The position numbers were made by a program, and so were the translations under genes. The notes beneath the pieces are model-generated. The model saw nothing but the letters and a program-made list of their open reading frames with translations, searched no databases and was not told the origin of the DNA. Positions 5,008 to 38,277 of a stretch of DNA of 47,959 nt are shown here, one piece after another. Origin of the DNA: Elusimicrobiaceae bacterium (GTDB taxonomy: Bacteria; Elusimicrobiota; Elusimicrobia; Elusimicrobiales; Elusimicrobiaceae); the NCBI GenBank assembly GCA_017468055.1, contig JAFUJU010000022.1:1-47959 (forward strand). The letters run 5' to 3'. The first letter of the stretch is position 1. The number at the start of each line of letters is the position of its first letter.

Positions 5008-5517
5008 TTACATCCAATAACTCTTTTCATCTTTTTGTTCCTTCCCCAAAGACTTGCAAAGGCCCAAACTGCGTTCATCTGCCATAGAAGCATAGCAAAA
5101 AGTACGGCCGGCATCACTCGCGTCAGATATATGGTCAAAAAATGTTTCTATATTAATGCTAAGCGAAGAAGAGGATATTTGGGTATAAATACGTCCATCT
5201 ACTCCTGGGCGCGATCCATTTTGACAACTAATAACAATAGAATAACTCCCTTTTTGCAAACGATACGAAGATTCTCCTGTATCCAAAATAAATCCGGATG
5301 GCAAATCCGCACCTATTTCTTCACACGTTTCTCCATAATAACCATTAGCCATATAAAAAACTTCTTGTTGAGTCTTTAAGTTTTTTAAAATAGGAAGCAA
5401 CTCAGTTACTCGTGCTTTATCTACTGCCTTCGTATACTGTGGCAAAGACACCGCAGACAAAATACCAATAATTAACACCACTACTAAGAGTTCTATTAAT
5501 GTAAAACCTCTTTTCAT
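5008..5517 (-). CDS. Type IV pilin-like protein
   Basis: 169 aa. Starts MKRG-FTLIELLVVVLIIGI: a short leader, prepilin peptidase site G4/F5, Glu at mature +5 and the hydrophobic alpha-1 helix, then SAVSLPQYTKAVDKAR. The remaining ~120 residues are a unique globular head with Cys in GETCEE, ISCQNG, TFCYAS and GLCKSL that may form disulfides. Ribosome site AAAGGAG. The gene is a single unit with the promoter cassette at 5557-5610 and a terminator at 4958-4982. No pilus assembly genes (pilB, pilC, pilQ, pilD) are nearby, so the machinery must be encoded elsewhere. Confidence 0.93.
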   Translation of the reverse strand: MKRGFTLIELLVVVLIIGILSAVSLPQYTKAVDKARVTELLPILKNLKTQQEVFYMANGYYGETCEEIGADLPSGFILDTGESSYRLQKGSYSIVISCQNGSRPGVDGRIYTQISSSSLSINIETFFDHISDASDAGRTFCYASMADERSLGLCKSLGKEQKDEKSYWM

Positions 5518-14756: not shown

Positions 14757-15806
14757 TTACAGCTTGATCCACAGCATAATAAAGTAGCCGCTCATCAAGA
14801 CTAAACCGGTAGGCACCGCCACACGCGCCCATTCACGGCTTTTAATGTTCAGCTTTTCGGCAGCAACGATATTGGGCAGATTCCCCTGCACCAACATACT
14901 GCCAAAAGCCGCCAGTCCGATGACCATGTACATCAAGTTCTCGGTAGTAATAGTAGGGGTTACTTCAATAGCGGCCAAAGTGGCATTGTCTATGATGACA
15001 GAGACTGCATTTGCCCAGAACAAAATCTTTCCGTTTAAATGAGCAATGGTGCTTTGGGCAAAGGGTCGCAAACCTGTGCTGATTAAATGCAAAGCCGCTA
15101 CGAACAAATAAATATGCCACGTACGGCGAAGAATGGATTTATGGTCTTCCTTATCTTCACGAATATGCATTTGCACCTGCGTATTGGCATTGCGCACCGT
15201 GTATCCGGTAGCTAATGCCATCAAAGCAATCCCCGGCACAATCCACCAGAAAAAGAGTCTAAGCACGTAAAAGAAATCCGCCTGATGCGGCCCCGCCGCC
15301 AGTTCATTATAAATTACCAGCCCCAACGGCTCTGCCAACGGAAGCAAAATAGCCCCCAGCCCAATGGCATAACAGGCATAAACGGTAACTTTGACGGTTT
15401 GTTCCCTTTCCAAATTTACTACTTGCAGCACTTCGGCCAGCACCAGGGCCGCCACCGTTACACTGCAAATACTGGACATCATACCCAGTAAAAAAACCAA
15501 TACCGCAAAGCTGTAGCGCGGCTCCAGATAGCGGAACAAAATAAACAATACGCGGAAAATATATCGGGAATAATGATTAAAAATAATGCTAACCACCAAA
15601 ACAATAAATGCCACATTTACCGGCGCATTTAGCGTTTGGTAAATAAAATCTTTGCTCCAACCGCCGGTAATCGTCACAGCCACCGCCCCTACCATTAATA
15701 GGAACAGCTCCAAATGGTTTTCTACCCATTTGGATACCAAAGGCCACACCAACAGGTTTAGCACTACCACGGCTAACAAAATTTTGGTTAGTAAAGTTAC
15801 TTCCAT
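14757..15806 (-). CDS. DUF1646-like membrane protein, putative cation transporter
   Basis: 349 aa with about ten membrane helices (LLAVVVLNLLVWPLV, LFLLMVGAVAVTITGGW, VAFIVLVVSIIF, SFAVLVFLLGMMSSICSVTV, GLGAILLPLAEPLGLVIY and others). The length, the helix-breaking SSICSVTVAALVLAEVL region in the first half, and ATLAAIEVTPT with GNLPNIVAAEKLNI in the second half fit the DUF1646 / ion-transporter superfamily, related to arsenite and Na+/H+ antiporters (recognition from memory, moderate). The substrate is unknown. Monocistronic, upstream of the hydrogenase operon on the same strand with no clear terminator between. Probably leaderless (TAAAAT 6 nt before ATG). Confidence 0.7.
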   Translation of the reverse strand: MEVTLLTKILLAVVVLNLLVWPLVSKWVENHLELFLLMVGAVAVTITGGWSKDFIYQTLNAPVNVAFIVLVVSIIFNHYSRYIFRVLFILFRYLEPRYSFAVLVFLLGMMSSICSVTVAALVLAEVLQVVNLEREQTVKVTVYACYAIGLGAILLPLAEPLGLVIYNELAAGPHQADFFYVLRLFFWWIVPGIALMALATGYTVRNANTQVQMHIREDKEDHKSILRRTWHIYLFVAALHLISTGLRPFAQSTIAHLNGKILFWANAVSVIIDNATLAAIEVTPTITTENLMYMVIGLAAFGSMLVQGNLPNIVAAEKLNIKSREWARVAVPTGLVLMSGYFIMLWIKL

Positions 15807-15864
15807 GTTTATATTTTACTAAATTCCTTCTGCAATACGATGTGGAAAATTCTGTCTATTTTGC

Positions 15865-15870
15865 TAGAAT
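15865..15870 (+). promoter_or_regulatory. Extended -10 for the Lys/Ala-rich protein gene
   Basis: TTTTGC TAGAAT at 15865-15870, with a weak -35 TGGAAA (15843-15848) 16 bp upstream. A normal leader follows, with AAGGAG 6 nt before ATG 15911. Confidence 0.55.
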
Positions 15871-15910
15871 ATAGAAGAAGTGAAAACTTATCCAATTCAA
15901 GGAGTCTTAC

Positions 15911-16534
15911 ATGAAGAAAGTATTTGTAACCTTGTCTGTGTTGGCAGTTGCCTCTGTGGCTTTTGCCGCTGAAAACTGTACCTGCCAAGCCGGTGATTCC
16001 GCTTGCTACATCAGCTGTGTACAAACCAAAGTAACCGCCGCCCGCAAAGCCACTGCAGAAAAAATTGAAGCTGCTAAAGCGAAAGCCAAAGCCGCCAAAA
16101 ATCAAAAAAATACCGTTTCCGAAGAAGATATCAAAACCTCTTTAGAAAACAAAAAAGCTGAATTAAAAGCTCAAGCCGAAGCTAAAAAAGCCCAAGCTAA
16201 AGCTCAAGCCGAAGCCAAAAAAGCCAAAGCCAAAGAAGATGCCGAAAATTACAAAGCCTCTTTGAAAGCCAAAAAAGCTGAAACGGAAAGCAAAATTGCC
16301 GCCGCTAAAGCCAATGCCGACAAAAAAATTGATGCAGCCAAGGCCAAAGTAGAAGAAGCCAAAGCTCAGCTCAAAGCTGCCAACAGCGACGATGAAAAAG
16401 CCGCCGCTAAAGCCAAAGTGGAAGCTGCTAAAGAAGCTTTGAAAACCAAAAAAGCCCAAGCTAAAGAAAATGCAAAAAATGCTGAAAAAGCCGCTAAAAA
16501 TGAATTAGCCGCTTGGAAAGCTTTAGCCAAATAA
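15911..16534 (+). CDS. Exported Lys/Ala/Glu-rich protein with CxCx6Cx3C motif
   Basis: 207 aa. Signal peptide MKKVFVTLSVLAVASVAFA. The mature N-terminus carries ENCTCQAGDSACYISCVQTK, i.e. C-x-C-x6-C-x3-C with a Gly-Asp pair in the x6 stretch. Residues ~45-205 are a long, highly charged helix of K, A and E in heptad-like order (AKAKAKAAKNQK, EAKKAQAKAQAEAKKAKAKE), probably a coiled coil or a rod. No known family. The paralogue at 16627 has the same Cys spacing. Histone-like composition is misleading because the protein is exported. The cysteines could form disulfides, bind metal or anchor the rod (inference). It has its own promoter and terminator. Confidence 0.85.
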   Translation: MKKVFVTLSVLAVASVAFAAENCTCQAGDSACYISCVQTKVTAARKATAEKIEAAKAKAKAAKNQKNTVSEEDIKTSLENKKAELKAQAEAKKAQAKAQAEAKKAKAKEDAENYKASLKAKKAETESKIAAAKANADKKIDAAKAKVEEAKAQLKAANSDDEKAAAKAKVEAAKEALKTKKAQAKENAKNAEKAAKNELAAWKALAK

Positions 16535-16559
16535 ATTTTGGTTTTATCTAATACAAAAA

Positions 16560-16584
16560 CCGCACTTTTAAGTGCGGTTTTTTT
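16560..16584 (+). terminator. Terminator after the first Lys/Ala-rich gene
   Basis: CCGCACTT (16560-16567) / AAGTGCGG (16570-16577), followed by T7. Confidence 0.88.
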
Positions 16585-16626
16585 GTTTTAAAATAAAGGG
16601 GCAGTAAACAGATTAAGGGGGTATGT

Positions 16627-17109
16627 ATGAAAAAAGTAATTCTTACAGTAGCAGTTTTTTTAACTGCATACGGCCTTGCTTCCGCAATGGAAACATGCCA
16701 TTGCACACAGGGTGATTTAAAATGCGTCAGCACCTGTACCAAGGCAAAAGTAAAAAACACCAAACAGCAGGTGGCGGCTGAAAAACAAGCAGACAAAGCA
16801 TTCCTAAAAGCCGATAAGGCCGTCACGAAAGAAGCAACCAAAGACTTAAAAGGTTATTATAAAGCCGACAAACAAGTCGTTCGCGAAGAAATGAAAGAAG
16901 CCAAAATCAATGCCAAAGAAAAAATCAAACAGGACAAAGCTCAAGGCAAAGCTCAAAAAAAGGCTATCAAATCCGAACGCAAACAAGCCAAACAGACAGC
17001 CAAAAAACATAAGAAAGAATTAAAAAGAGAAGCCAAAGCCGCCAAAAAGGCAGCTAAAAATGAAGCCTCTGTTGAAATAGTAGATTGGGAAGCAGTGGTA
17101 GAAGAATAA
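16627..17109 (+). CDS. Exported Lys-rich paralogue with CxCx6Cx3C motif
   Basis: 160 aa. Signal peptide MKKVILTVAVFLTAYGLASA, then METCHCTQGDLKCVSTCTKA: the same C-x-C-x6-C-x3-C pattern with GD at the same place as in the gene at 15911, followed by a K(V) pair. The rest (about 45-150) is a strongly basic helix (KADKQVVREEMKEAKINAKE, KSERKQAKQTAKKHKKELKR), ending in an acidic tail EIVDWEAVVEE. It is more basic and less alanine-rich than its neighbour, so the two have diverged while keeping the cysteines. Ribosome site AAGGGGGT. Terminator at 17123. Function unknown; surface or periplasmic location inferred from the signal peptide. Confidence 0.85.
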   Translation: MKKVILTVAVFLTAYGLASAMETCHCTQGDLKCVSTCTKAKVKNTKQQVAAEKQADKAFLKADKAVTKEATKDLKGYYKADKQVVREEMKEAKINAKEKIKQDKAQGKAQKKAIKSERKQAKQTAKKHKKELKREAKAAKKAAKNEASVEIVDWEAVVEE

Positions 17110-17117
17110 AATATACT

Positions 17118-17146
17118 AAAAAGCCCGCCTTTTTCGGCGGGCTTTT
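17118..17146. terminator. Bidirectional terminator
   Basis: GCCCGCC (17123-17129) / GGCGGGC (17136-17142) with A5 before and T4 after. It separates the 16627 gene (+) from the pilin gene 17151-17657 (-) and can serve both. Confidence 0.85.
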
Positions 17147-17150
17147 GAAA

Positions 17151-17657
17151 TTAAAATTTCAACCAGCAAGTATTACTTGCTCCTTGTTTTGTATAACCAC
17201 GTTTTTTACAGGCTTCTTCGGCACCTTCACAGTATATAATTCCGGTACCGGAGTATGTATAGGGAGTACCTGCCGGATCAGTCCACAAGCTCCAATCACT
17301 ATCAAAGCCACCCTCATTTCCATAAGCAGGGTAAGCGGCAGCCTCACAGCCATCCAAAGAGTAGTACCAATTTTTTGTTTTACTGCACCATCGTTCCGGA
17401 CAATCTCCACCTTGTTGTACCGTTCCCGGGGGCTGAACTGCAAAAGAATCAAAACCAGTGTCGGTATAATGGCAGTTACCGCCATCTTCCAACATAAGCA
17501 ATTCAAGCTGTTCTCTCATTGTTTTTAGCACACTTTCCGCTTCTGCAATGCGACTTTTCTCCACTGCTTTGGTATATTGCGGCAAAGCCACCGCTGACAA
17601 TATACCGATGATTAACACCACAACTAATAGTTCTATCAACGTAAAACCTTTTTTCAT
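17151..17657 (-). CDS. Type IV pilin-like protein
   Basis: 168 aa. MKKG-FTLIELLVVVLIIGI leader and alpha-1 helix, Glu at mature +5, then SAVALPQYTKAVEKSRIAEA. Head domain of ~120 residues, rich in Cys, Gly and Tyr (GGNCHYTDTG, GGDCPERWCS, LDGCEAAAYPAYGNEGGFDS, IIYCEGAEEACKKRGYTK), with a terminal NTCWLKF. The sequence after about residue 45 differs completely from the other pilins here. Ribosome site AGGAGGAGAAAG. Single gene between cassette copy 3 and the terminator at 17118-17146. The large glycine- and disulfide-rich head suggests a surface-displayed pilin. Confidence 0.93.
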   Translation of the reverse strand: MKKGFTLIELLVVVLIIGILSAVALPQYTKAVEKSRIAEAESVLKTMREQLELLMLEDGGNCHYTDTGFDSFAVQPPGTVQQGGDCPERWCSKTKNWYYSLDGCEAAAYPAYGNEGGFDSDWSLWTDPAGTPYTYSGTGIIYCEGAEEACKKRGYTKQGASNTCWLKF

Positions 17658-17844: not shown

Positions 17845-18402
17845 CTACAAAATAATCAGGCGAATGGCCATAATGGCAAGCACCAATCCGGCCACAAATT
17901 CTATTCTTTTGCTGACAATCGTTTTAGAGGTTTTACTACCCAAGTGAAACCCCAACACCGTCATCAGGAACGTGATTACTAAAAGGAATAAAACCTGCGG
18001 GAACCAGCCCTTTCCAAACAATTCCAACGGATAACCCACGAAGAAAAATTGAGCCCCCGTTAATGCCGCCACCCGAATTAGTTTTTTAGTATCTTCCGCT
18101 TCCTCTTCTTTAAAACTGGGAGATTTCTCCAACATTTCCAACATATATTTAATACCCAACAGCAGCAAGAAAGCAAAGCCAATCCAATTGGCCACGTTCA
18201 CAAAATATCCGCGGAAGAACAAAATGCTGAATATATATCCTACCGTAAAAAACAATGCATTGAAACCGGCAAAACAAAAAGCCGCTTTAATGGAAAAAAC
18301 GCTTTTTGTTTTTAATTCCATTTTCATGGCAGACATATTGGCCGTTACCATATTATCCGTACACAAACAGATAAAAATAATAATCAGAGCTATTAATCCC
18401 AT
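17845..18402 (-). CDS. Divergent MntP-like membrane protein
   Basis: 185 aa with six membrane segments in two pseudo-repeats, as in manganese exporter MntP. The first repeat keeps the acidic motif (FICLCTDNMVTANMSAMKME, compare SLSMDNFAVTIASG in the neighbour). In the second repeat the equivalent SLDALLVG aspartate region reads ALTGAQFFFVGYPLEL, so the second Asp, important in E. coli MntP, is missing. It is therefore either a variant with another substrate or a partner of the adjacent canonical MntP. Ribosome site AAAGGAG. It lies 33 bp after mntP on the same strand, with its own possible -10 (TGC TAATAT). Confidence 0.75.
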   Translation of the reverse strand: MGLIALIIIFICLCTDNMVTANMSAMKMELKTKSVFSIKAAFCFAGFNALFFTVGYIFSILFFRGYFVNVANWIGFAFLLLLGIKYMLEMLEKSPSFKEEEAEDTKKLIRVAALTGAQFFFVGYPLELFGKGWFPQVLFLLVITFLMTVLGFHLGSKTSKTIVSKRIEFVAGLVLAIMAIRLIIL

Positions 18403-18435: not shown

Positions 18436-19002
18436 TTAGCAAATTCCTAGCCCGCTGAGTAGTACCCGTACACCTACCCCGGCCAATGCCACCCCACCCA
18501 ACACCTCTACGGCCGTACCGAAACGGGCGCCCAAAAAGTTCCCCAAATAAAACCCCGCATAACTGGTCACAAAGACACAAACAGCCATAGATAACAACGT
18601 GAGTGCAAACGGAGCCGCCGTTAAAGATAAGGCAATTCCCACCAGCAGGGCGTCTAAACTGGTAGCCAGAGCTAAGGCTAAAATACTCTTAAAAGAAATA
18701 ATACGGCATAAATTCGGGTTTTCTTTTTTTTCAAATGCTTCTTTTACCATTTTCAACCCGATAAAAACCAATACTACAAAAGCCGCCCAATGGTCAAAAC
18801 GATCTATCACGCGCCCCAACTCTTTCCCGCCAAACCAACCTGCACTGAACATCAGCACATGAGCCATGACAAAACACATGCTGACAGAAAAGATATGTTT
18901 AAAGCGTAAATCACGCCCCGCACTGCAACCGGACGCAATAGTTACGGCAAAATTATCCATAGACAAACTTAATGCTACTATAAAACTGGATAGAACGTTC
19001 AT
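18436..19002 (-). CDS. mntP: Manganese efflux pump MntP
   Basis: 188 aa, six membrane helices in two repeats: FIVALSLSMDNFAVTIASGC (repeat 1 Asp) and ALALATSLDALLVGIALSLT (repeat 2 Asp), both typical of MntP (DUF204). The central linker is KEAFEKKENPN. It exports Mn(II) across the inner membrane. The start codon is 6 nt from a CATAAT -10, so it is probably leaderless. There is no room for a yybP-ykoY manganese riboswitch, because the divergent serine dehydratase starts 39 bp away. A divergent MntP-like paralogue follows directly. Confidence 0.9.
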   Translation of the reverse strand: MNVLSSFIVALSLSMDNFAVTIASGCSAGRDLRFKHIFSVSMCFVMAHVLMFSAGWFGGKELGRVIDRFDHWAAFVVLVFIGLKMVKEAFEKKENPNLCRIISFKSILALALATSLDALLVGIALSLTAAPFALTLLSMAVCVFVTSYAGFYLGNFLGARFGTAVEVLGGVALAGVGVRVLLSGLGIC

Positions 19003-20815: not shown

Positions 20816-22339
20816 TTAATTAAATTGCTGTTGGAAAGATTTTTTGATTTGGCGGATTTGTTTTTCACGTAAGCTCTCTGCAAAATGAAAGGCTATTTCT
20901 TTACTCCAGTTTTGCGTTTGTTTAATGCTTTGGGAAGGATCACTCATCCAGCCGCCTTCCGGAAAGACTAAATTTAAGCCCGTACTTTTTTTCATATTCA
21001 AAAAGCTTTCTTCCAACATCTTTTGCAAGGACTCACACTGAGCAGGGTTTTGATGGCATAAATCCTGTTCGGCAGGCTCATCATACTCGCTCATAAAAAC
21101 AGAATATTGCCAAGGGGCATTGTCTTTATACACAAACATCTGACTGGGGCCGCTGCATCTTTTACCCATACATTGTTTTTCCCCTAAAGGCATGCCGGAG
21201 AAAGGATACTCATACACCCAAGTATATCCGTTTTTTAACCTAGCAGATAAATAGGCCACTTCTCCTTTTTTATCTAAAATATAAAAAAGGTACGGATCTA
21301 AATCTTTTACATGTACAAATACATCCAGTCCGCTTGTTCCCAAAAGTAACGGACGGTGATATACCTTTTCAGCAGAAAGGTCTATATGCGATAAATAAGA
21401 GTTTTGAGATAAAAATTCCGGCGTAATTTGTTTATACTCCGTTTGTTCCGGCAAAAAAGCCTCTATACATTTTCGCTCTCCGATAATTTTGTATATTTTC
21501 TCAGGATTTTTTAAACTTACTTCCAGTTGGGGTTTTATCGGTTGGCCCAAGCAGTTGGCATATACTACTAAAGCTCCGCTTTTGCTTTCGTGATATATCT
21601 CTTGGCTCGCCATTCTGCCGTCTTGAAATTTTCGCTCCGCATTACAAAAAGAGATCATTTGAGAAGATGTCTGTTCCTTGCCCATCGCCCTTTGCAAAGC
21701 AATGACAATAGCATCAGCATCGTCACAAGTTAATTCCATACTGCGGTTCATAATAGACTCTTGCAAACCGGAACCTATTTTCTTGTTTTTCAAATAGCGC
21801 AGTGTGTACAAATCATCCATCGTAAAAGCATGACCGATTTCATGAATAATCGTTCTTCTAGGGCCATAGGGCGGAGTGATTTTTTCCGGATATACAATCC
21901 AAATCGTTTTTGACTGCAATCTATAACAGCCACCTGCTCCGCCGGAACATTTTTTAGCTACTTGATCTACATCTGTGTAATGAATTTTAATATCTGCCCG
22001 AGAAGGATCTTCTGTGTATTGATAATGACCGGTCACAGCGCCATATTCAATAACCGGCAAATAGGGCAGCATGGCTTTCTGCTGTTGGACAGTTAAACGT
22101 GAAAGAACATTTTCAAACCAAGCGGAAAAGGCTGTTTGAGTATAATGAATTAAATCGGAAGATACAGCTGCTGTTTTCTCCCCCTCTCCGGTAGAAACAG
22201 AAATATACACCTGCAAAGGACGTTTGGCAATCAATTTGTCAAACAAAGAACTTTCATATTTTTCCAACACGATAAATGGTGCGGCAAAAGCCACACCCGC
22301 GCTAAAAACAAGTAAAAAAGAAAGTATTACTTTTTTCAT
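20816..22339 (-). CDS. Secreted metzincin-like zinc protease, unknown family
   Basis: 507 aa from the ATG at 22339, chosen because MKKVILSFLLVFSAGVAFAA is a clean signal peptide and GGGAGAAGGCGTG lies just upstream. The zinc motif is HEIGHAFTMDD (H166, E167, H170, probable third ligand D176), with a Met-turn-like SIMN at 195-198. The spacing and order fit metzincins, but Gly of HExxHxxG is Thr173 and the third ligand is Asp rather than His, as in snapalysins. A Cys pair lies before the site (KKCSGGAGGCY). The ~300-residue C-terminal part is unrecognised, with paired Cys (EKQCMGKRCSG, DLCHQNPAQCES). Monocistronic. Role: possibly degradation of host or surface proteins (inference). Confidence 0.78.
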   Translation of the reverse strand: MKKVILSFLLVFSAGVAFAAPFIVLEKYESSLFDKLIAKRPLQVYISVSTGEGEKTAAVSSDLIHYTQTAFSAWFENVLSRLTVQQQKAMLPYLPVIEYGAVTGHYQYTEDPSRADIKIHYTDVDQVAKKCSGGAGGCYRLQSKTIWIVYPEKITPPYGPRRTIIHEIGHAFTMDDLYTLRYLKNKKIGSGLQESIMNRSMELTCDDADAIVIALQRAMGKEQTSSQMISFCNAERKFQDGRMASQEIYHESKSGALVVYANCLGQPIKPQLEVSLKNPEKIYKIIGERKCIEAFLPEQTEYKQITPEFLSQNSYLSHIDLSAEKVYHRPLLLGTSGLDVFVHVKDLDPYLFYILDKKGEVAYLSARLKNGYTWVYEYPFSGMPLGEKQCMGKRCSGPSQMFVYKDNAPWQYSVFMSEYDEPAEQDLCHQNPAQCESLQKMLEESFLNMKKSTGLNLVFPEGGWMSDPSQSIKQTQNWSKEIAFHFAESLREKQIRQIKKSFQQQFN

Positions 22340-22419
22340 CACGCCTTCTCCCAAAAATAACAAAAAAGCTTAATAAAAGTATAAAGAGAAAAAGTTTAAA
22401 AAACAAGACTTTGGGTTTC

Positions 22420-25309: not shown

Positions 25310-27994
25310 TTAAAATCGAAACATAAGCTTCAATTCCCCGCCTACGCCCTCTGTTTTTCCCAGCAACCCGAATACAGACACTTTTCCCTTTACAGGCAAA
25401 AATGCCGTTTGGCTTTCATACTCTACGCCTACTCCGGCGCGGGCGCTTAACCCTTTCAGGTCCGTTCCGTTTAATTGATTTCCATCTATACGCATGCGAC
25501 TTTTTGCCAAAAACTCATACGTCCCCGCCACATCTGCGTACGGTTTAAACCCTTTCCCCAAGTCTGCCAATATTGCCTTTATCCCCAAGGTTCCGGTTAA
25601 ACTCTGTGTGTTTTTAAAGCGTATATCCTGCCCCAAATTATCGTTTTCATCGCTTCCGAATAACAGGGTCCAATCCGCCTCACCATACACTTGCCACCCC
25701 TCAAACGGTTGTACAAAACCGGCCAATACCCCCAAGTAATAACCCTTATTTTCCACGTGGGAGGCCAAGGCGGAAGAATCAAAATCGTCCTGTTTATAAC
25801 CTGCCCGAAATATGGTTTTGATATAGCCAGACTCATTGTAAGGGATTAAACCGAAAGCCCCCAAACCGAAGCTGTCTATACTGCCCGTGGCCCGCACAGG
25901 ATCCGTAGAATAATGTCCCCTTGCGTACTGTACAAAAACACCCGCGGCGTTTTGATTCATTTTAAACCACTTACCCGCCTGTAATACTAAATGTTGTAAG
26001 TCAAAATGACTTCCCGTATCGTAGCGGTTTTGGCCATATTGAAAAGTAGTAAACAAATCTTGTTCACTATCTGCCTTTAAAGCTTCTTCAAAAACACCGC
26101 CCAACTGTTCTGCGCCCAAAGACACCAAACGCAAACCGGCTAGCTGAGCCTGTTGGTACGGCTTGGCCAAGTTACGGTCAAAACTCCCTTGCGCGGTCCA
26201 ATAAGTGCGCGTACCGTCCTCTCCTTCTGTTAAAGAATAACGGTACACACCCAAGGTATCTTTACCCAAAGAAAGGTGGGAGTTTGCTGTTAAAGCATAG
26301 GCCACCAAATGCGTTTGCGCAGACGGACGGCCGTAAGGAATGAATGTAGCTTGCGTATCCCGCCGAAAGCCCACATAACTCTCCAGCCCTTGCACAACAA
26401 CATTTGAAAAACTATTCACTTCTTTTATCTCTCCGCGGTAATTGTCCAACAATAATTTATTGCCTGTATTAGACGGGCCCGTTCCTCCGTACAAATTTCC
26501 GCTCACCTGCGTATTTCCCGACAATACTACAGTGTTGTAAGTGGTTTCTGCGGAAGCATCGGTACTAAAACCACCATACACATCTCCGTCAATATCGGCA
26601 CTGCTTAAATGCACCGTATTGCCGGAAGCATTTTGCCCGTTACTGTAACCGCCGTACAAATTACCGGTCAGCTGCGTATTGTTCAACACCACTTTATTGC
26701 CGGTGGCAGTTGCTTGGGCCATGCCGCCATATACATTTGCATTCAACGTGCTGTTTGAAACAGATAAAATATTACTTTGGGCCACATTTCCGCTCCCGCC
26801 CGAAAAACTGCTGCCGGAAAGAGTACTGTCTGAAATTATAAGGCTATTTCCGGAGGATGTTCCGCTAGCAGCCGCTCCACCGCTAAGAATATTTCCCCCT
26901 TGCGTAACACCGGATAAAGACAAGCTATTATTATATGCATTACCGCTTGCACTATAACCGCCATAGGCTGCTGCACCGGCAGAAGCACTTTGTATGCTGA
27001 CAGCATTAGCCCACGCATCTGATGATTCCCCATACCCACCGTATAATTGGGTAGTATTTGCCAGTGTGGCACCGGAGCTGACCGATATTTTATTTTGTCC
27101 GGCTCCGCCGCTCCCGCCATTATACCCACCATAAACATTGCCCGACACAGTGGCACCATCGCCCAAATGCACTTCATTATAAGAGCTGTTCTCTGCGCCA
27201 CCGCTGTATCCGCCGTATATATCTCCCTCTATATTACTCTCTTGTGCAGACACCAAATTATAGGCACTTTCTCCCGTCAAACTGGCGCCTCCATACACCT
27301 GCGCTTGCACGCTCCCTGTGCCTGATAAAGAAACTTGGTTATGCAGCGCATTTCCACCTTGGGTATATCCCCCGTAAAGAGCATTGTTTCCGCTTAAAGA
27401 AACACTCGCATTTCCCGCTACATTCAAAGTATTGTAAGACACTTCCCCCATATTCACACTATAGCCTGCCGCCGCGGTAGTATTGAGGGCGGAACTATTG
27501 CTTACATAAATAGAATTGTTAGAAGCCTGCGCATTAAACGTTTCTCCGCCAATCACTTTATTTTGTGTAGCAGAATCATAATTGACGGTGCTCCCTTCCA
27601 GCCAAACTGTATTTCCGTTGGCATTTCCGGCCGCTAATCCGGCCGTTATATTGCTTTGCAACGTTACATTATTTATACGCACCAAGTTATTATTGGCTTG
27701 TTGGTTTTGGGACACGCCTGCCGTTGCGGAGGGGGATTGGATATTTCCACCCAACAAATGCAGTTCATTCCCCACAGCATTACCTGTTTGGCTTTGTCCC
27801 GTCAGTAAATTTCCATCAAAAATTCCCCCGCCAATCACCATTTTATTGGCGGTACTGTCCGTTTGAAATCCGGTTTCTCCATCTAATACCAGATTTCCCG
27901 AAAATCCCTGATTATAAGTGGCATAGAGCCCGCTGGCCCCCCATGCGGCACAAGAAAAAAATAACATCACCATACAACTAATTCTTTTTTGCAT
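25310..27994 (-). CDS. Autotransporter (type V secretion) with glycine-rich passenger repeats
   Basis: 894 aa. Signal peptide MQKRISCMVMLFFSCAAWGA. Passenger of about 25-600 built from some fifteen imperfect repeats of ~25-35 residues around the theme N.V.L.....G.VYGGY (for example GNVYGGYNGGSGGAGQNKIS, GNLYGGYSNGQNASGNTVHL), expected to fold as a beta-helix. C-terminal ~640-894 is an autotransporter barrel (VFVQYARGHYSTDP, IFRAGYKQDDF, YGEADWTLLFGS, GVGVEYESQTAFLP) ending in ELKLMFRF with terminal Phe. No protease, RGD or cleavage motif was recognised, so the passenger is probably an adhesin. Ribosome site AAAGGAGGGGG. Monocistronic. Confidence 0.88.
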   Translation of the reverse strand: MQKRISCMVMLFFSCAAWGASGLYATYNQGFSGNLVLDGETGFQTDSTANKMVIGGGIFDGNLLTGQSQTGNAVGNELHLLGGNIQSPSATAGVSQNQQANNNLVRINNVTLQSNITAGLAAGNANGNTVWLEGSTVNYDSATQNKVIGGETFNAQASNNSIYVSNSSALNTTAAAGYSVNMGEVSYNTLNVAGNASVSLSGNNALYGGYTQGGNALHNQVSLSGTGSVQAQVYGGASLTGESAYNLVSAQESNIEGDIYGGYSGGAENSSYNEVHLGDGATVSGNVYGGYNGGSGGAGQNKISVSSGATLANTTQLYGGYGESSDAWANAVSIQSASAGAAAYGGYSASGNAYNNSLSLSGVTQGGNILSGGAAASGTSSGNSLIISDSTLSGSSFSGGSGNVAQSNILSVSNSTLNANVYGGMAQATATGNKVVLNNTQLTGNLYGGYSNGQNASGNTVHLSSADIDGDVYGGFSTDASAETTYNTVVLSGNTQVSGNLYGGTGPSNTGNKLLLDNYRGEIKEVNSFSNVVVQGLESYVGFRRDTQATFIPYGRPSAQTHLVAYALTANSHLSLGKDTLGVYRYSLTEGEDGTRTYWTAQGSFDRNLAKPYQQAQLAGLRLVSLGAEQLGGVFEEALKADSEQDLFTTFQYGQNRYDTGSHFDLQHLVLQAGKWFKMNQNAAGVFVQYARGHYSTDPVRATGSIDSFGLGAFGLIPYNESGYIKTIFRAGYKQDDFDSSALASHVENKGYYLGVLAGFVQPFEGWQVYGEADWTLLFGSDENDNLGQDIRFKNTQSLTGTLGIKAILADLGKGFKPYADVAGTYEFLAKSRMRIDGNQLNGTDLKGLSARAGVGVEYESQTAFLPVKGKVSVFGLLGKTEGVGGELKLMFRF

Positions 27995-29382: not shown

Positions 29383-29853
29383 TTAACGTTCATCTTGCAA
29401 TTGAAATTTTTGCGATTCCAACCCTTTGCATATTTTATAACCTAAATCCGTGTAGGCACGACACTGTTTATAGTCAATTTGATGAGACGAAGCAAAACTA
29501 GTATAAAGAGTATATTCACTTACTTCTTCATTGCAATTTTTTGTCCTTACAATACGCATATCATAAGGGTCGTCATGTATGTAAAGAAAATTTTTGGTAC
29601 AGTATTCTTCTCCTTCTTCGTTCCATTCTCCACCAGAGAGTTCCATGATATCTCTACCTAAACCAGATAGAGTTCCGCCTCCCTCCAAAGAATTCATTTG
29701 TACCATTTTTTCCATATAATTTTGATTCGTCAAAGCTTCGGAAGAACGTGCTTTCTCAACAGCAGTTATATATTGCGGCAAAGCCACAGAAGACAATATA
29801 CCAATGATTAATACCACTACCAACAGTTCAATGAGCGTAAAACCTTTTTTCAT
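29383..29853 (-). CDS. Type IV pilin-like protein
   Basis: 156 aa from ATG 29853 (AAAAGGAGAAAAAG upstream); a longer in-frame start 12 codons earlier is rejected because it would spoil the MKKG leader. Cleavage site G4/F5 in MKKGFTLIELLVVVLIIGIL, then SSVALPQYITAVEKARSSEA. The head is acidic (GGEWNEEGEEYCTKNFLYIH, NCNEEVSEYTLYTSFASSHQ) with Cys in EYCTK, KNCNE, KQCRAY and KICKGL. It differs from the other pilins after the shared helix. Cassette copy 4 is 74 nt upstream. Its leader region resembles that of the pilin at 37819, so these two loci may be the most recent duplicates. Confidence 0.93.
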   Translation of the reverse strand: MKKGFTLIELLVVVLIIGILSSVALPQYITAVEKARSSEALTNQNYMEKMVQMNSLEGGGTLSGLGRDIMELSGGEWNEEGEEYCTKNFLYIHDDPYDMRIVRTKNCNEEVSEYTLYTSFASSHQIDYKQCRAYTDLGYKICKGLESQKFQLQDER

Positions 29854-29926
29854 CTTTTTCTCCTTTTGTACGTATTTACGGGCAATCAAACGGCCTTTAA
29901 AACTTGGACCTGCTCACAACCCCGAA

Positions 29927-37818: not shown

Positions 37819-38277
37819 TTACATATTTTCGCAAAAGCCGCCATCTACCAAATTTGCACATGGAGAGACATATTTACATTTATCAGACATGGTACATTGG
37901 GTATATCTCTTTCCACGGGAAGATTTATTATGATGTATATTATAAATCAATCTGACCCCAGACAAAGAATTTAATCCATCCATTTGCAAAAAAGCAGATC
38001 CCGTATCACTAACTACTCCACCCGCTCCAGCAGTAAAGGTCCAGTTTTTCCCACCACAAGAAATATCTAATTCTAAATCCTCCAAATTATCTGAAAAATA
38101 ACCATTTTCCAAATAATATATCTCTTGTCTATCCAAAAAAGCTTTGCCCATGGTCCAAGCTTCTATGGCTTTAGACTTATCCACAGCTCTAGTATATTGA
38201 GGAAGAGCAACGGAAGCCAAAATACCGATAATTAACACCACTACCAATAGTTCTATCAATGTAAAACCTTTTTTCAT
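37819..38277 (-). CDS. Type IV pilin-like protein
   Basis: 152 aa. MKKG-FTLIELLVVVLIIGIL leader and helix, then ASVALPQYTRAVDKSKAIEA, with Glu at mature +5. Head of ~105 residues with LEDLELDISCGGKNWTFTAG and a Cys-rich C-terminus (YTQCTMSDKCKYVSPCANLV, GGFCENM) likely to form disulfides. Ribosome site AGGAGAGAAAA. Single unit between cassette copy 5 (74 nt upstream) and the hairpin at 37780. The smallest complete pilin in the window. Confidence 0.93.
   Translation of the reverse strand: MKKGFTLIELLVVVLIIGILASVALPQYTRAVDKSKAIEAWTMGKAFLDRQEIYYLENGYFSDNLEDLELDISCGGKNWTFTAGAGGVVSDTGSAFLQMDGLNSLSGVRLIYNIHHNKSSRGKRYTQCTMSDKCKYVSPCANLVDGGFCENM

Follow-up and report, generated by a model that had tools for sequence, protein, structure and literature searches.

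The window analysed here, a stretch of 47,959 nucleotides, is a contig of a 1.32 Mb Elusimicrobiaceae genome that is 87 percent complete (G000). Two genes for small exported proteins lie one after the other on its forward strand, and a transporter gene is divergent to the first of them. The features of this locus are as follows.

14757–15806, reverse strand: DUF1646 transporter gene, divergent to the first gene (Pfam PF07854, E 8.7e-82; context).
15843–15870, forward strand: promoter-like site of the first gene, extended -10 TGCTAGAAT (consensus scan, sequence evidence alone).
15899–15904, forward strand: ribosome-binding site AAGGAG of the first gene (sequence).
15911–16534, forward strand: first family member, 207 amino acids (translation, family membership, dN/dS, AlphaFold2).
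15977–16018, forward strand: four-cysteine head of the first gene, codons of CTCQAGDSACYISC (pattern match).
16555–16582, forward strand: terminator-like hairpin between the two genes (12 pairs, loop of 4, T-rich tail).
16627–17109, forward strand: second family member, a divergent paralogue of 160 amino acids (translation, orthologues, dN/dS, AlphaFold2).
16696–16737, forward strand: four-cysteine head of the second gene, codons of CHCTQGDLKCVSTC (pattern match).
17119–17146, reported on the reverse strand: terminator-like hairpin after the second gene (11 pairs, 7 of them G-C).

Translation confirmed the two open reading frames and both signal peptides of the initial annotation. Both proteins begin with MKK, followed by a hydrophobic segment and a cleavage site of the AxA type. 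The first protein has a signal peptide at residues 1–19, a CxCx6Cx3C head at residues 23–36, a basic Lys/Ala/Glu helix and the C-terminus AAWKALAK. The second has a signal peptide at residues 1–20, the head at residues 24–37, a basic helix and the C-terminus VDWEAVVEE; DWEAVVE(E/N) is the form that the C-terminal motif takes in this second protein. The shared cysteine spacing with GD inside it (CTCQAGDSACYISC and CHCTQGDLKCVSTC) and the Lys/Ala/Glu helix that follows had been described correctly, and the exported, helical, rod-like reading is supported. The tails had been put at 110–160 residues, one of them near neutral and the other basic, and here the description has to be corrected. Beyond the last cysteine they measure 171 and 123 residues, and their net charges are +19 and +17. 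The terminator-like hairpins between the genes and after the second gene make it probable that the two genes are transcribed separately or form a loosely coupled pair. The hairpin at 17119–17146 may act for the facing pilin gene, or for that gene and the second rod gene alike.

The expression signals of the first gene recur in its relatives. In 61/61 family upstream regions, a TAnAAT box lies about 43 bases ahead of the start codon (27.6 in shuffles), and 49 of these 61 regions carry the extended -10 form (6.0 in shuffles). AAGGAG was likewise found in 49/61 relatives, against 1.6 in shuffles. The codon use of the first gene is more one-sided than that of the other genes in the window: 96 percent of its Lys codons are AAA, every Glu codon is GAA, and 92 percent of its Ala codons are GCC or GCT. 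Together, the promoter, the ribosome-binding site and the codon bias suggest high expression of the first gene.

The claim that no known family has this design holds for Pfam and NCBIfam, neither of which yielded anything above cut-off. The best Pfam E-values for the two proteins were 0.61 and 0.95, and the best NCBIfam values were 0.009–0.025, far under the cut-offs; these hits are to low-complexity helical regions. Neither metallothionein nor any other four-cysteine metal protein was matched in Pfam, NCBIfam or the PDB sequences. Asr gave no Pfam match at E up to 1, OmpH gave none, and LEA_4 gave none even though an 11-residue periodicity is present. The family is a member of none of Asr, the group 3 LEA proteins and the apamin-type peptides. 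Several other candidates were tried and set aside. The PDB sequences returned a chance CRCNSGDVVC in a trypanosome RNA-editing protein when compared with the head profile (E 0.09). Foldseek retrieved generic helical rods (colicins, HlyD, BAR domains) with a best E of 0.43, which we do not take as structural homology. There is no Rfam match within the window to indicate an RNA element at the locus. A phage origin was rejected, as no match occurs in 50,697 phage records and the chromosomal locus is conserved.

A search for further CxCx6Cx3C proteins in the phylum, as had been proposed, found the family in two genera. The degenerate DNA pattern CxC..GD..C...C occurs in about 41 places in 341 Elusimicrobiota genomes, and 40 of these fall in one genus or its sister genus. 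One match outside the family Elusimicrobiaceae (G145) proved to be unrelated. The same pattern read backwards gives 4 matches in the same genomes. Among the three closest genomes, the dN/dS is 0.12–0.15 for the first gene and 0.07–0.15 for the second, tails included, so both genes are under purifying selection. The head pattern is not due to chance, given this selection and the excess of about 41 matches over 4 reversed ones. A head profile of 34 residues matched 55 of the 66 genomes of the genus at E < 1e-10 and 8 of the 18 genomes of the sister genus at E < 1e-3. In one further sister-genus genome (G082) the head has an E of 0.013 and is recognizable by reading, which raises the count to as many as 9/18. 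Nothing credible was found with this profile in the other 98 genera among the 341 genomes.

All genomes with a whole-protein match gave a strong match to the cysteine-head profile as well. Neither whole-protein and head-profile comparison nor the conserved site revealed a homologue without the cysteines, and where the rod gene is missing from that site it has been deleted. Homologues lacking the signal peptide or the cysteines, which would have spoken against the initial reading, were found in none of the relatives. Since our list of 61 members was extracted by the cysteine register, the independent support for the family rests on the whole-protein matches, the head profile and the deletion sites. 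In one member (G051) the tail is broken, either by a frameshift or by an assembly error. The four named relatives picked up by a single-protein scan are all Elusimicrobiaceae assemblies and come from the hindgut of water buffalo, sheep and yak. The second gene was seen only in G000 and, as orthologues, in G032 and G035. We conclude that this is a real, unnamed, lineage-restricted and mostly single-copy family of exported proteins. The earlier picture of two proteins is right as to the pair in the window, and it understates the family to which they belong. Each single element of the family has precedents; the combination is unusual.

The head is the most constant part of these proteins. The four cysteines are invariant in an alignment of 42 rows and are kept in all 61 members read, one sister-genus member having Cx3C in place of the first CxC. 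The loop between CxC and Cx3C is six residues long in 61/61 members. An Asp stands three residues before the third cysteine in 60 of the 61, and in the AlphaFold2 models of both window proteins the helix starts directly after it; this Asp therefore probably serves as the helix N-cap. In these models, CxC lies in a loop and Cx3C on the helix itself. They are confident in the tails and weak in the head, with a pLDDT of 55–77, and carry no information on partners. The first protein is predicted to form helices at residues 30–64, 71–155 and 160–206, and the second a single helix at residues 31–159.

The cysteines had been said to hold while the tails diverge, and across the family the tails do vary in both length and sequence. 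Counted from the Asp, they span 108–245 residues, a 2.3-fold range that would correspond to 16–37 nm if each were one straight helix. Their net charge is +6 to +31 in all 61 members. They contain almost no Pro or Gly, and large hydrophobic residues make up 7–18 percent. Lys/Arg, Glu/Asp and large hydrophobic residues each peak at a period of 3.65, and the positions of these three classes show autocorrelation at lags of 7, 11, 18 and 22. From this periodicity the tail reads as an ordered helix, that is, not as random low-complexity sequence. The i+4 pairing of Glu to Lys of classical single α-helices is not enriched in the tails. In a helix-face analysis, the Lys stripe is 135 degrees away from Glu/Asp and 164 degrees away from Ala. 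These angles carry reduced weight, since each position holds a single residue, which separates the classes even without design. The C-terminus carries the motif A-W-K-x-L-x-K, with the Trp in 60/60 complete members and the final Lys in 55 of these 60. This Trp motif and the Asp at the helix start are conserved elements that the initial annotation did not contain. The rod of one sister-genus member (L096:2914–3750) has seven extra cysteines in a metallothionein-like insert, CGCGKKCNC...CGC.

At nearly every locus read in the genus, the rod gene is divergent to the DUF1646 transporter gene. Downstream are two MntP-like genes and a serine dehydratase gene, with variable pilin-like genes in between. 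In the window, the MntP-like membrane proteins are encoded in tandem at 17845–18402 and 18436–19002, and they stand side by side across the genus; the protein of the former is more divergent from the MntP model than that of the latter. Solitary pilin-like genes with N-methylation motifs and 4–7 cysteines are found at 5008–5517, 17151–17657, 29383–29889 and 37819–38277, of which the gene at 17151 sits in the gap between rod and MntP genes that differs between species. Two other genes of the window encode larger exported proteins. One (20816–22363) has 515 residues, a zinc-protease-like HEIGH motif, ten cysteines and no Pfam match above cut-off, and the other (25310–27994) has 894 residues and no Pfam match.

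Four relatives (G053, G054, G061 and G069, at L118, L119, L120 and L121) keep the order DUF1646–MntP–MntP and cleanly lack the rod gene. The rod gene is thus dispensable in these four. Several other genomes lack both the rod gene and the orthologous DUF1646 gene, and one branch within the sister genus has a GGDEF/EAL gene as the divergent neighbor of the rod gene instead. The DUF1646 gene is a conserved neighbor and serves as context, a candidate part of the rod's mechanism at most. No function can be derived from the neighbors with confidence.

From the sequence features, the conservation, the selection and the predicted helix, we infer a periplasmic protein that is closed by disulfides and binds to the envelope. 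The reading that we favor, though only tentatively, is a soluble basic helical rod, clamped by its cysteines, that binds anionic envelope polymers non-covalently. The protein would be exported by Sec and cleaved by signal peptidase I, and the four-cysteine head lies close to the predicted mature N-terminus, only a few residues away. The CxC segment would then fold back on the first turns of the helix and be joined to the Cx3C pair by two disulfides. Such a clamp, like a cystine-stabilized helix, would protect and rigidify the helix start. The Lys-rich face of the rod could bind lipopolysaccharide phosphates, phospholipid and peptidoglycan non-covalently, with the Trp tip as a second contact. 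In this way the rod may fill, space or stabilize the periplasm and the outer membrane. A strict ruler spanning two layers is hard to reconcile with the 2.3-fold variation in length, and the clean loss of the gene in four relatives also speaks against this reading. In broader terms, the family probably contributes to the cell envelope as a building block held non-covalently.

The clamp presupposes that cysteines are oxidized in this envelope. Other exported products of window genes contain many cysteines (10 in the protein encoded at 20816–22363 and 4–7 in the pilins), as would fit an envelope in which disulfides are made. Against the clamp, neither DsbB nor VKOR was detected in 21 genus genomes, and no DsbA scored above cut-off there. 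An exported thioredoxin-like protein with CPYG and weak similarity to DsbA (L108:1417–2364) is present in three genomes of the genus. An unrecognized disulfide oxidant is plausible because of the cysteine-rich exported proteins and this CPYG protein.

The missing known catalyst also leaves room for a different role of the head, as a four-thiolate site for Zn, Cd, Cu or Fe in a periplasmic metal buffer or sensor, with the rod as carrier or oligomerization arm. The four cysteines are invariant within 14 residues, extra cysteines occur in sister-genus members, in one case as the metallothionein-like insert described above, and two manganese-exporter-like genes lie downstream with a heavy-metal P-type ATPase nearby. 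The head, however, has no His and no conserved set of acidic ligands beyond the Asp at the helix start, and it matched no metal-protein family. The metal genes are set apart from the rod gene by the variable pilin genes and are not its neighbors in the sister genus, and cysteines are also abundant in other exported proteins that show no sign of binding metal. We regard a metal site as possible but unlikely. The same cysteines could instead form disulfides between chains and join rods into dimers or trimers, with the bundle as the functional unit. The position of four cysteines close to the free end of a rod would allow this, and helices could pack against each other through Ala and large hydrophobic residues, which recur with an 11-residue periodicity. 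Cysteines that are even in number and closely spaced nevertheless pair more simply within one chain, and with 7–18 percent large hydrophobic residues the tail would make a weak coiled coil; our confidence in a bundle is low.

Similarly improbable is a polycation that is secreted and binds DNA or host mucin outside the cell, in adhesion, in a biofilm matrix or as a DNA-uptake helper with the neighboring pilins. The net charge of +6 to +31 and the pilin-like genes in the downstream gap of several genomes would fit. The pilin neighbors, however, vary between species while the rod gene stays, neither a signal for crossing the outer membrane nor a secretion partner is seen, and no conserved Arg-rich or histone family was matched. 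A covalent tether of the Braun-lipoprotein type would have the C-terminal Lys cross-linked to peptidoglycan and the N-terminus at the outer membrane. It draws on the final Lys that follows the conserved motif in 55 of 60 complete members, on the Ala-rich helix and on the mDAP-type cell wall expected in a diderm. None of the rows has a lipobox, and in all of them the AxA cleavage site lies 3–5 residues before the first cysteine. The second protein ends in Glu. YkuD and VanW, the L,D-transpeptidase enzyme classes named in PMC12274547, are scarce or missing. YkuD is absent from G000, which is 87 percent complete, but near-complete rod-bearing relatives also lack it, and it is absent from 28 of 31 genomes of the genus. 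VanW is absent from 21/21 genomes, and OmpA-type tethers are present in 21/21. Lacking both a lipobox and an L,D-transpeptidase in the genome, anchoring like that of Lpp was rejected as likely, and we consider it very improbable.

The non-covalent rod can be extended to a more far-reaching proposal, a new envelope class specific to Elusimicrobiaceae. Here a clamped helix with a polylysine face would hold the outer membrane by charge alone in a bacterium that lacks Lpp and L,D-transpeptidases, and an unrecognized anaerobic system would oxidize its cysteines. We offer this version as speculation and think it quite improbable in full. The family itself, previously unnamed, is lineage-wide and exported in a phylum with few cultured members. 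Its head, Asp, Trp tip, locus and natural deletions offer handles on the stability of a diderm envelope without Lpp-type anchoring. It also raises the question of whether cysteines are oxidized or hold metal in gut Elusimicrobiaceae in which DsbB, VKOR and a clear DsbA were not detected.

Among known systems, the rod would work like Asr of Escherichia coli or an uncoupled Braun lipoprotein, while belonging to neither. Asr is a small, basic, Lys/Ala-rich protein without an enzymatic domain that contains Pro and His and is not known to have a cysteine head. It acts as a chaperone in the periplasm, helps to maintain the integrity of the outer membrane and can dominate expression (PMC10746267). 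The two are alike in being basic and rich in Lys and Ala and also, as predicted for the rod, in being periplasmic and potentially very abundant. Asr is intrinsically disordered (PMC10746267), whereas the rod is predicted to be an ordered helix, nearly lacks Pro and has four invariant cysteines. With the Braun lipoprotein Lpp the family has in common an exported, Ala-rich helical rod and, in 55 of 60 complete members including the first protein but not the second, a C-terminal Lys. It differs in having no lipidated cysteine and no L,D-transpeptidase in the genome, in being strongly basic, and in its variable length, two to four times that of Lpp.

The cystine-stabilized helices of the apamin/endothelin type have a seven-residue loop between CxC and Cx3C. 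In apamin, two disulfides hold a short helix to an N-terminal loop (PMC7039932). The rod head resembles this type in its predicted layout, with CxC in a loop followed by Cx3C on the helix, and in the two disulfides that could form. It differs in that its loop has six residues and that it is bacterial and caps a helix of more than 100 residues; no common origin is claimed, and the bonds in the rod are putative. Group 3 LEA proteins consist of 11-residue helical repeats (PMC12871917), and such repeats, rich in Lys, Ala and Glu, are found in both families. The rod differs from them in lacking a LEA_4 match, in being exported, and in its cysteine head and C-terminal Trp motif. The periplasmic chaperone Skp/OmpH has basic, periplasmic helical arms, and in these it resembles the predicted rod, which differs from it in having no OmpH match and no β-barrel core, and in carrying a cysteine head.
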